Shown here piece by piece: positions 18,559 to 21,383 of a stretch of 38,156 nt of DNA. The stretch covers positions 175,896 through 214,051 of the forward strand of contig PLZD01000002.1 in the NCBI GenBank assembly GCA_003151975.1, written 5' to 3'. Under the pieces are notes generated by a model. That model made no database searches. It worked only from the letters and a program-made list of their open reading frames with translations, and was not told where the DNA came from. The stretch is from Elusimicrobiota bacterium. Lineage in GTDB: Bacteria > Elusimicrobiota > Elusimicrobia > UBA1565 > UBA9628. Positions within the stretch are counted from its first letter, which is position 1. Each line of letters starts with the position of its first letter. The translations under genes and the position numbers were made by a program.

Positions 18559-19976
18559 AGCAGCGGCGCGCCATTATTGGCGGCGCGCTCGTCGTTCTCG
18601 CCGTCCTTCTCGTTTTCTCCCCCGTCCTGCGCAACGGCTTCGTCGATTGGGACGACGACATACTGATCTACGCGAACCCGTACATTCGCGGATTGGATTT
18701 CCTGCATCTGCGCTGGATGCTGACCTCGACGCTGAACTCCGCCTGGCAGCCGTTGGGCTGGTTCACGCTGGCGCTCATCTACAAAATGTTTGGGCTTGCG
18801 GCCTGGGCCTATCACGCGCAAAGTCTAAAACTGCATTTGATCTCGACGGCGCTGGTCTACGCGATCGGCCTGGAATTGCTCGCCGGCGATGTCGCGGCGT
18901 CCGCGCTCGCCGCTCTGCTTTTCGCGCTTCATCCGCTGCAAGTCGAGAGCGTCGCGTGGGCGTCGTGCGGCGCCGACATTTTGTGCTGCATGCTTTCGCT
19001 TGGCGCGATTTACGCATATCTACGCTCGTGGAGGAAGACCTCGTATCTCATCGCGGCTTGGGCCGCTCTTGCGCGCTGGGAGGCCGTGACGATTTTCCCT
19101 CTGCTTTTGATCCTCGACGGACTCGTCCTCAAGAAAAAGTTTCCGTGGCGCGGCAAACTGCCGTTCCTTTTCGTGGCCATGGGAACCGGTGCCGCCAACG
19201 CGATCGCGAAGACTTCCGTAATGAATTATCAGTCATCTTCTCCGTCGGTTGCGGCAGCCGCGCTGGCGCAATTCTCGGTCCTCGGCCGGATCGTCGTGCC
19301 CGTCGCGTTGCGGCCCGTTTATTTCATCACGCCGGAGTCCACTCCGCTGGGATTTTCCGCGGGCCAGGCTGCAGTGTTTCTTCTCGGACTGACCGCGCTG
19401 TCCTTCATGTTCCGCAAAAAGGCTCCCGCGGCGCTGGCGGCGTGGCTCTGCTGCTTGGCCGCCATCGCGCCCGTCGTCTCGATGTCTCGCCCCGGACCTT
19501 TGTTCGTGCACGACCGCTACGCGTATTTGCCGCTCGCGATCGTCGCGATGGGCATCGGCGCGTTGCTGAAGAAACGCAGAGCTTTGCGCCCGGCGGCCTC
19601 CATTGTCGTCGTCTTGCTGGCCGCGGCCTCGATTCAGCGCATCGCTGTCTGGCATGACGCGGAGTCGCTCTGGAAGAGCGTGGCCGCGGTCGATCCGCAA
19701 GAGAGCCTCGCGTACTACGACCTCGGCACTTTGTACATGTCGCGCGGCAAGCCGTATCAAGCGATCTATTATTTCCGCGAGCAAGCGCGCCGCAATCCCG
19801 AGAAGGGCCGCCCGAACCTCGCGCGCGCTTGGAACGATCTCGGCGCGGCTTACTCCGAGCTCGGAAACTGGAGTCGCGCCGCGGCAAGCTTTTCGAGCGC
19901 GCTCATTTACGCGCCCGAAGAACCTCAAATCAAGGCAAACCTGTCCGCCGCGCGTGCCCGACTGCGAAAACATTAG
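18555..19976 (+). CDS. TMTC-like GT-C membrane protein with C-terminal TPRs
   Basis: This polytopic protein of 473 residues resembles the TMTC/protein O-mannosyltransferase-like family. An early luminal acidic motif (NGFVDWDDDILIYANP, residues 27-42) matches the metal/substrate loop of GT-C enzymes. The signature HPLQVESVAWASCGADIL near residue 125 and DRYAYLPLAIVAMG near residue 320 are typical, and about ten hydrophobic segments follow. The last 110 residues hold about two TPR units (ESLAYYDLGTLYMSRGKPYQ; NDLGAAYSELGNWSRAAASF). A lipid-linked sugar transferase acting on exported proteins is the likely role, by family. The TTG start overlaps the ruvC stop. The gene sits between ruvC and ruvA, so it is probably an insertion into that operon. 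Confidence 0.75.
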   Translation: MKQRRAIIGGALVVLAVLLVFSPVLRNGFVDWDDDILIYANPYIRGLDFLHLRWMLTSTLNSAWQPLGWFTLALIYKMFGLAAWAYHAQSLKLHLISTALVYAIGLELLAGDVAASALAALLFALHPLQVESVAWASCGADILCCMLSLGAIYAYLRSWRKTSYLIAAWAALARWEAVTIFPLLLILDGLVLKKKFPWRGKLPFLFVAMGTGAANAIAKTSVMNYQSSSPSVAAAALAQFSVLGRIVVPVALRPVYFITPESTPLGFSAGQAAVFLLGLTALSFMFRKKAPAALAAWLCCLAAIAPVVSMSRPGPLFVHDRYAYLPLAIVAMGIGALLKKRRALRPAASIVVVLLAAASIQRIAVWHDAESLWKSVAAVDPQESLAYYDLGTLYMSRGKPYQAIYYFREQARRNPEKGRPNLARAWNDLGAAYSELGNWSRAAASFSSALIYAPEEPQIKANLSAARARLRKH

Positions 19977-20123
19977 GCCGACCGGGCGGGGCGGCCATAA
20001 ATTTTAGGGCCGCGCCGATTGAACTTGCTAACTTCTCGTTGTGGGGCTACACTTTCTTCAGTATTCGTCGAATTCAGTTATGGCCGACCGGCTAGAATTA
20101 GGCCGACCAGTCTAATTGTCGTT
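19977..20123. other. Gap with repeated GGCCGACC words and possible cassette left boundary
   Basis: There is no gene here. The word GGCCGACC occurs at 19977, 20082 and 20101, twice within ATTAGGCCGACC. A weak hairpin (GCGGCC 19991-19996 / GGCCGC 20008-20013, loop 11 nt) follows the stop of the TMTC-like gene. GTTATGGC occurs at 20077-20084 and again at 20121-20128. It is the exact complement of the GCCATAAC box of the attC-like site at 20605, so either copy could be the left boundary of an integron cassette. Base composition becomes AT-richer here. TCTAAT (20111-20116) lies 7 nt before the next ATG. Confidence 0.5.
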
Positions 20124-20603
20124 ATGGCTCAGTCCAACTTTATGCGCGATTCAGAACTGTTTGATAAGGCCGTCGAGACCTTCTTTGATCCCCTCGCTAA
20201 GGAGCTAGGCTTACCTCTATCCAAGGTCAGAGATGGCGTCTATGATATTTTTTCTCCGCATTTCATCATGCGCATTCGTCTTGACACAGGCCATGCGCGG
20301 GGGCTCAACGTAATTTTGCGGCCCGGCTCCATTCGTGATTGCGATGAGAATGATTATTCTATTGAGCAGTTGGGAATTGGGAATTTCATAAAGTTCTACG
20401 GTGAGGAATGGAATGAACCGCTCATCGACACCGACAAAGATTTTCTCAATCAGGCACACCGGTTAGCAGCGGTCGCAAAACGGCATCTGGCGCAATATTT
20501 GCTTGGCAATGGTAAAGATTGGGAAGCCATCAGGTCGAAAGTAAAAAGTGCATCGCAAAAGAGGCAGCTTGAAATGAAATACCCCTGGATGAAAAAGACA
20601 TGA
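20124..20603 (+). CDS. Hypothetical protein carried as an integron-type gene cassette
   Basis: I do not recognise this 159-residue protein. It is soluble, with no signal peptide or membrane segment, and has mixed alpha/beta character. A charged N-terminal helix (DSELFDKAVETFFDPLAKEL) precedes beta-like stretches (YDIFSPHFIMRIRLD, GLNVILRPGS) and a helical C-terminus rich in Lys/Arg/Gln. It may be a complete small single-domain protein; an immunity- or adaptor-like role would be guesswork. Codon use and base composition are clearly more AT-rich than neighbouring genes. The attC-like site starts 2 bp after the stop. ATG 20124 is preferred because TCTAAT ends 7 nt upstream; an in-frame ATG at 20142 is an alternative. 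Upstream extension to about 20019 is unlikely. Confidence 0.6.
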   Translation: MAQSNFMRDSELFDKAVETFFDPLAKELGLPLSKVRDGVYDIFSPHFIMRIRLDTGHARGLNVILRPGSIRDCDENDYSIEQLGIGNFIKFYGEEWNEPLIDTDKDFLNQAHRLAAVAKRHLAQYLLGNGKDWEAIRSKVKSASQKRQLEMKYPWMKKT

Positions 20604-20604
20604 C

Positions 20605-20682
20605 GCCATAACATCGGGTAGTGCGGCCGGCGGCAATTTAAGGAGTCCCTGTCGCCGCCGCCGCACACCCCGGCGTTAAGCC
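20605..20682 (+). other. attC: attC-like integron recombination site
   Basis: The 78-bp imperfect palindrome starts 2 bp after the stop of the cassette gene. It ends with GTTAAGC (20675-20681), matching the attC core GTTRRRY, and begins with GCCATAAC, whose AAC (20610-20612) pairs with that GTT. After a short, poorly paired spacer, GGG pairs with CCC. A long stem then runs from G20621 to C20634 against G20654 to C20666. Unpaired bases A20620 and C20628 on one arm and C20668 on the other are like attC extrahelical bases. The apical loop is 19 nt. GCCATAAC is the exact complement of GTTATGGC at 20077 and 20121, as expected if the excised circular cassette rebuilds a fully paired R box. No U-run follows, so it is not a terminator. 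Confidence 0.7.
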
Positions 20683-20705
20683 CTAAAGCCTATCCCCTCC
20701 ATCTG

Positions 20706-20734
20706 TTGCCAAAAGGCACACATCGTGTTATACT
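20706..20734 (+). promoter_or_regulatory. Leaderless promoter of the toxin-antitoxin pair
   Basis: TTGCCA (20706-20711), exactly 17 bp, TATACT (20729-20734), then 6 nt to GTG 20741. Each hexamer has 5/6 consensus matches. Confidence 0.7.
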
Positions 20735-20740
20735 TTCGAT

Positions 20741-21028
20741 GTGGGGCATTACGGATGGGATCCCGACAAAAATGAATGGCTCAAAGCCACTCGTGGGATC
20801 AGCTTCGAGCAGATCGAGCTTGCAATCGCAAACGGCTGGGTTCTCGACGTCTTCGATAATCCGAACAAAGAAAAATACCCTTTGCAGCAGGTTCTCGTCG
20901 TCAATGTAAACAACTATGCGTATTTCGTCCCCTACGTGGAGTCCGCGGAAGGGAAGTTTCTTAAAACGATCATCCCAAGTCGAAAAATGACCCGCAAATT
21001 CCTTGGAGGTGCAGATGAAACCACTTAA
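20741..21028 (+). CDS. BrnT-like toxin of a type II toxin-antitoxin system
   Basis: This small basic protein (95 residues) has the BrnT/RelE-like layout: WDPDKNEWLKATRGISFEQI at the N-terminus, a central beta region with YAYFVPYVES, and the C-terminal FLKTIIPSRKMTRKF, the position of the basic catalytic segment. The pattern WD.DKN..L...RGISFE together with IPSRK is typical of toxins paired with CopG-like antitoxins of the kind found next door. The expected activity is a ribosome-dependent or free mRNA endonuclease, known from the family and not shown here. GTG 20741 is selected by the promoter ending 6 nt upstream. The antitoxin start overlaps the last 14 bp. Base composition is AT-richer than the host average. 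Confidence 0.7.
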   Translation: MGHYGWDPDKNEWLKATRGISFEQIELAIANGWVLDVFDNPNKEKYPLQQVLVVNVNNYAYFVPYVESAEGKFLKTIIPSRKMTRKFLGGADETT

Positions 21029-21314
21029 GCTGGATAAGGAAGAGAAGGAGTTGCTCGCGTCTATCGAGCGAGGGGAATGGCGTTCCGTCAAGAATCTGAA
21101 GAAGGAATTGGCCCGTCATCGTCAGATAGCACGGAATACGCTCAAAAAGAACAAGAGGGTCAACATAAGAATCTCTTCAATGGACCTCTTGCAACTGCAA
21201 TTTCTCGCTTCGCGCGAAGGCATACCGTATCAGACCCTTATGGGCAGCGTTCTTCATAAATTCGCGGCCGGGCTTTTGGCGGACAAGGGTCGCAAAGGAT
21301 ACGGCGAAGCCTAA
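21015..21314 (+). CDS. CopG/BrnA-like antitoxin
   Basis: This 99-residue antitoxin is encoded directly after the toxin. The N-terminal half is a charged helical region (DKEEKELLASIERGEWRSVK) that probably wraps the toxin. The C-terminal half carries the ribbon-helix-helix signature KRVNIRISSMDLLQLQFLA followed by GIPYQTLMGSVLHKF. RHH antitoxins normally bind the operon promoter and autorepress, so the compact promoter at 20706-20734 is the likely operator. ATG 21015 is chosen because GGAGGT stands 5 nt before it; translation is coupled to the toxin by a 14-bp overlap. Toxin-first gene order is usual for BrnTA-type modules. Confidence 0.75.
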   Translation: MKPLKLDKEEKELLASIERGEWRSVKNLKKELARHRQIARNTLKKNKRVNIRISSMDLLQLQFLASREGIPYQTLMGSVLHKFAAGLLADKGRKGYGEA

Positions 21315-21369
21315 AACGAAAGACGGCTCCGTCGAGCTCGGCGAGGTTATCTACGACGAAGAGTTATGT

Positions 21370-21375
21370 TATAAT
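21370..21375 (+). promoter_or_regulatory. -10 element of ruvA (leaderless)
   Basis: A perfect TATAAT ends 8 nt before ATG 21384; the -35 (TTATCT at 21347-21352) is weak. ruvAB therefore appears to have its own promoter, consistent with being cut off from ruvC. Confidence 0.55.
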
Positions 21376-21383
21376 CCCTCACG

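Follow-up and report, generated by a model that had tools for sequence, protein, structure and literature searches.

The ruvC–ruvA locus

The DNA analysed here (the window, 38 156 nucleotides, contig C2, positions 175896-214051) is from an uncultured Elusimicrobia bacterium (G000), the genome of which is a 68-contig draft of 4.64 Mb with 96% completeness. An insert between ruvC and ruvA carries, in order, a TPR membrane-protein gene, an attI platform, a gene cassette and a BrnT-type toxin-antitoxin-like pair; the coordinates are given in Table 1. Comparison with relatives lacking this island had been suggested in a preliminary description of the sequence, which also named a conserved terminator in related genomes as evidence against a cassette. 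In the relatives compared, ruvA immediately follows ruvC, which represents the empty site, and there is no hairpin between the two genes; one genus is an exception, because ruvC could not be located in the stretch retrieved for it.

The BrnT-type pair was assigned by matches to PF04365 (E 5e-8) and PF12441 (E 4e-5), both under the curated cut-off. No attC was found for this pair by either of two attC models (R1 and R3, see below), and a candidate second attC at 21300-21375 was rejected, having no stable fold and no model match. The operon link of ruvC and ruvA, conserved in this bacterial order, is broken in this genome. A promoter-like sequence (TTGCCA-17-TATACT) is located at 20706-20734, and ruvA may depend on a promoter within the insert.

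Table 1. Features of the insert between ruvC and ruvA (positions in the window).
Feature	Position	Strand	Details
Whole insert	18559-21383	+	2.8 kb, between ruvC and ruvA
Stand-alone attI-Pc platform	19973-20121	+	about 149 bp; 89% identity to C12 copy
Inverted repeat	19976-19996	+	GGCCG...CGGCC; left end of platform
Putative cassette promoter Pc	20025-20053	+	TTGCTA, 17 nt, TACACT
attI repeats	20077-20117	+	GTTATGGCCGACC (20077-20089) and TTAGGCCGACCAGTCTAATT (20098-20117)
Recombination point at attI (G/TT)	20121-20122	+	divergence point of window and C12; cassette closure
Gene cassette	20122-20675	+	554 bp; left end complements R'', attC at right end
Cassette gene	20124-20603	+	159 aa; ATG at 20124, start codon within left-end box
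attC site	20605-20681	+	R'' 20605-20612; R' GTTAAGC 20675-20681
BrnT-like toxin and CopG/BrnA-like antitoxin genes	20741-21311	+	after attC

The attC site and the borders of the cassette

The insert had been described as containing an integron-type cassette with a genuine attC site, and the attC site is real. The R'' box, GCCATAAC, follows just after the TGA stop codon of the cassette gene (20601-20603) and is paired with R' through an imperfect, GC-rich stem, in which a single base is unpaired and which ends in a loop of 19 nt. The hairpin folded better than shuffled sequences on both strands (z about -3.5 and -3.8). A covariance model of attC (R3), trained solely on attC sites from arrays linked to intI in other Elusimicrobia genomes in order to avoid circularity, matched positions 20601-20683 with 61.2 bits (E 9.9e-17 for the window, 1.2e-14 for the whole genome), and plain BLAST matched the site to other loci of its own genome (E 4e-12 to 6e-10).

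The left end of the cassette, GTTATGGC, is exactly complementary to R'' over 8 nt. In a cassette derived from a circle, the left end has to be complementary to the R'' of that cassette, and the proposal that the left end supplies the R' half in the circle was upheld by this closure, the two ends reconstituting R'/R'' on circularization. Folding of the bottom strand in the circular form predicted for the excised cassette gave a longer R'/R'' stem (-31.1 versus -26.2 kcal/mol; z of -6.2 versus -4.0). The same relationship was assessed across the genome with left ends set independently, from the preceding attC or from the attI border. Closure over at least 8 nt was found in 22 of 26 cassettes, with a mean match of 8.8 nt; after 10 000 permutations of the partners, the mean was 1.6 such closures (maximum 9) and the mean match 4.6 nt.

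A GC-rich hairpin directly after a stop codon could also be a transcription terminator, the resemblance to a cassette being due to chance, but there is no T run behind this hairpin and related hairpins are found behind other, unrelated cassettes. The terminator reading is refuted by the match to the independent model and by the closure of R'' with the left end, and its probability is negligible.

GTTATGGC is present twice, at 20077 and 20121, and the cassette had accordingly been placed at either 20078-20675 or 20122-20675. The second start stands and the first does not. A copy of the upstream sequence on contig C12 is similar through GTTA at 20121-20124 and diverges beyond; because this copy also contains the 20077 repeat, the repeat was assigned to attI and a left boundary at 20077 was ruled out.

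The cassette gene is AT-richer than its surroundings, as noted at the outset, and its product, then unrecognized, was placed in no family of Pfam, NCBIfam or PADLOC. No homologue was detected in 295 genomes of the phylum, nor was a viral homologue found; the predicted structure was of low confidence (pLDDT 65) and its fold matches were insignificant (E ≥ 0.3). Most likely it is an accessory protein specific to the lineage, a type common among cassette genes.

An attI platform precedes the cassette

Over 154 bp, the sequence upstream of the cassette shares 89% identity with the C12 copy, which lies on the minus strand at about 49288-49440. This match runs from -149/-150 to +3 relative to the junction, with no similarity beyond, so that the shared module is bordered by the left inverted repeat and by the G/TT point (the slash marks recombination); the genes on both sides are unrelated or different. 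Related modules were identified on C11, C57, C52, C53 (two) and C10, as well as beside the integrase gene on C40, where the sequence that follows intI (C40:1-170) is similar to that on the left of the window cassette. At least six further arrays without an adjacent intI are preceded by such platforms. The stop codon of the TPR gene (19974-19976) falls within the first bases of the platform, and that of the C40 intI is likewise placed.

The aligned modules have in common the inverted repeat on the left, a promoter-like section that contains a -10-like hexamer at a similar position, and TTAGGC(C/T)GACC repeats before G/TT. The core of these repeats is kept in attI-type modules of three genomes and is present in further genomes; the repeats are probable integrase-binding sites. 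The left repeat is probably a terminator insulating Pc, because the copy immediately behind intI on C40 forms a perfect hairpin of 8 bp with TTT after it. A generic promoter scan did not pick out Pc at 20025-20053. A model of the attI module (R2), run genome-wide, gave 12 matches at E ≤ 1, every one at integron parts, and its matches on C57, C55 and C10, which were outside the training set, sit directly before attC-bearing cassettes. Judged by its homology to the post-intI sequence and to the modules before other cassettes, the module appears to be an attI with a putative cassette promoter. The attI-like sequence differs at several arrays (C2:166k, C41, C55 and C37), and a single integrase may be unable to act on these sites as well.

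With intI elsewhere, the resident integrase might have inserted the cassette off target, at a non-classical attG site with no true attI. Such insertions are known (Loot et al., 2024, as cited in PMC12901181 and PMC12444791) and are alike in that an integrase scatters cassettes beyond its own attI. However, attG sites are neither attI nor attC, whereas the target in the window resembles attI; it is a repeated module with a promoter, common to other arrays and to the post-intI sequence, and not a random genomic GTT. The platform copy on C12 largely refutes the attG reading at this locus, and we regard it as very improbable.

Cassette arrays and the integrase gene

A search for other attC sites and for an IntI gene elsewhere in the genome, as had been recommended, found both. 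The cassette had been thought to be single, and it is the only one between ruvC and ruvA, but the genome contains about 21-22 attC sites, which are distributed over about 15 separate arrays, each with 1-3 cassettes: C2:166k (2), the window (1), C3 (2), C10, C11, C12, C37, C41 (2), C52 (2), C53:45k, C53:280k (3), C55, C57, C60 (2) and C65. Eighteen sites were recognized by the attC model R1, R3 added C41:5674 and C55:134029, and a closer search added those on C10 and C57. Most attC sites and closures are intact, and the arrays C53:45k, C57 and C65 are decayed. Arrays C60, C37 and C52, and intI itself, are near contig ends.

No flanking target duplication was found at the window array, C41 being the sole array with a direct repeat. 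There, a block of platform plus cassettes (L152, minus strand) is flanked by a 31-bp repeat, GGCATGGGCGTGAAGTACAAGTACGGCTGAG, which is the 3' end of the ferredoxin-like gene upstream, so that the insertion rebuilt the end of the gene. Cassettes on C12 (L042) and C57 (L240), which sit at different platforms, code for small lipoprotein-like proteins that are related to each other (about 30% identity), two such genes sharing one cassette on C12.

The reported absence of an integrase was borne out for the window, and a profile search found none on contig C2; the cassette therefore has no integrase adjacent to it as in a complete integron. The genome as a whole nevertheless has one full integron integrase gene, an intact ORF at C40:158-1363 (minus strand), which scored 425 bits against TIGR02249 (cut-off 265). 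Residues 74-380 could be aligned with the solved Vibrio integrase (VchIntI, 2a3v), including the integron-specific region before RRHH, and the nearest relatives, at up to 70% identity, are in Elusimicrobia genomes. The gene is oriented toward its attI, and the contig ends inside this attI before G/TT is reached; an array beside intI was not seen because intI is so close to this end. There was no intI-like match near the arrays.

A 35-bp motif upstream of intI (C40:1329-1363), GTGGAACTTTTT...GGGGTC..TCGTAT.CTCTT, has 14 copies in the genome, and the intI start codon is within a few bases of it, possibly making the transcript leaderless. GGAAC-N17-CGTAT is similar to promoters recognized by ECF sigma factors, so that intI may be part of a stress regulon under a regulator other than LexA. 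The motif was also considered as a mobilizer of the platforms and rejected, the 14 copies being promoter-like and mostly far from arrays.

Contigs C43 (120487-120653) and C40 (1-170) end in the same sequence of about 25 bases just past the attI-like sequence, and C37 may continue either of them. Judging from its sequence, the C43 copy has retained, next to its attI-like sequence, what look like the final codons of intI, so that a second, deleted intI-attI copy may exist. No intI remnant was found at the other arrays.

Integron components in other genomes

Among 57 genomes surveyed for attC and intI, 28 had attC and 20 had intI. The arrays linked to intI in L067 and Treponema bryantii, neither of which contributed to the training of R1, likewise gave attC matches with this model. 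Several genomes of one genus of the same family (g6) had neither attC nor intI and served as a negative control. Related platforms occur in other genera. In three genomes that were not in training, attI matches precede closing cassettes on two contigs (G043) or are located upstream of an attC in the same orientation (G032 and G007). No intI was detected in G007 and G032, which have both cassettes and platform matches, nor in G008, which has six attC sites on four contigs. One record titled as a Klebsiella pneumoniae MAG (L086) has an environmental-type IntI 60% identical to an Elusimicrobia IntI and is probably a mislabelled bin.

Discussion

Integrons are usually described as one integrase with one attI beside it and one array, along which expression fades. 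The intact attC sites, the single integrase gene and the repeated attI modules make it likely, in our judgement, that the window cassette occupies a stand-alone attI platform and that this is a dispersed integron, in which one integrase acts in trans. The C40 IntI would most likely bind the folded bottom strand of the cassette attC and would join attC to attI between G20121 and T20122. Insertion would put the gene about 70 bp behind Pc, which faces the cassette, with the terminator-like repeat at the left end of the platform. The genome holds at least a dozen such small arrays and not one long array. The sequence itself shows the attC site, the cassette borders, the integrase gene, the repetition of the attI platforms and, in relatives, the empty site; activity of Pc, use of the distant platforms by IntI and the way in which the platforms spread are inferred.

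The platforms may have spread in either of two ways. Copies of the intI-attI region may have lost intI, which is possible because the C43 copy keeps a 3' remnant of the gene, or the platform itself may move, which is possible because its borders are sharp and the other arrays have no intI remnants. A related explanation is that complete integrons at these loci each lost intI, leaving attI and a few immobile cassettes. In its favour are the apparent intI codons on C43 and the decay of some arrays, the latter being as expected of old relics, and intI loss is listed as one origin of integrase-less clusters (Cury et al., as cited in PMC8618304). Yet the other arrays lack such remnants, most attC sites and closures are intact, and the window and C12 modules match only from the terminator-like repeat to G/TT, with unrelated genes upstream. 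We consider the relic explanation rather unlikely; it and activity in trans can both be partly true.

The dispersed integron has partial counterparts. Clusters of attC or single attC sites without an integrase are termed CALIN and SALIN, terms of IntegronFinder (PMC9024848, PMC12690207), and the window locus, with its attC cassette away from intI, is a SALIN by definition. The likeness ends at the dedicated attI-promoter platform, repeated at many loci, since these definitions omit attI; attI sites outside class 1 are poorly described and fall outside what IntegronFinder searches for (PMC9024848). The Xanthomonas CALINs, as far as the excerpted text of PMC12444791 goes, are alike in comprising several intI-less arrays in genomes that may keep one intI, and differ in that no attI platform is described there at those loci; scattered CALINs and attG insertions are likewise presented without attI platforms in the excerpts of PMC12444791 and PMC12901181. 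In the reverse-orientation chromosomal integrons of Treponema (PMC3607928) intI is also transcribed toward attI, but the array is beside intI and one attI per integron is stated. A 2021 review does not include Elusimicrobiota in its list of integron-bearing phyla (PMC8618304), and nothing on integrons in Elusimicrobia was found in the open-access literature. Two papers there mention the phylum together with an integron integrase, and neither, judged by title and abstract, deals with integrons of Elusimicrobia; the novelty of the dispersed integron is judged within open-access text.

A broader form of the dispersed integron is offered tentatively, as a possibility that we hold with some doubt: in this bacterial order the integron may have been rebuilt as a network of one integrase and many promoter-bearing attI platforms, spreading as units of about 150 bp, with most cassettes expressed as the first of an array and not stored silent. 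If true, many attI-promoter platforms under one integrase would alter both the expression and the storage of cassettes. Dispersed platforms would also offer a concrete, testable origin for some of the integrase-less cassettes now classed as CALIN or SALIN.
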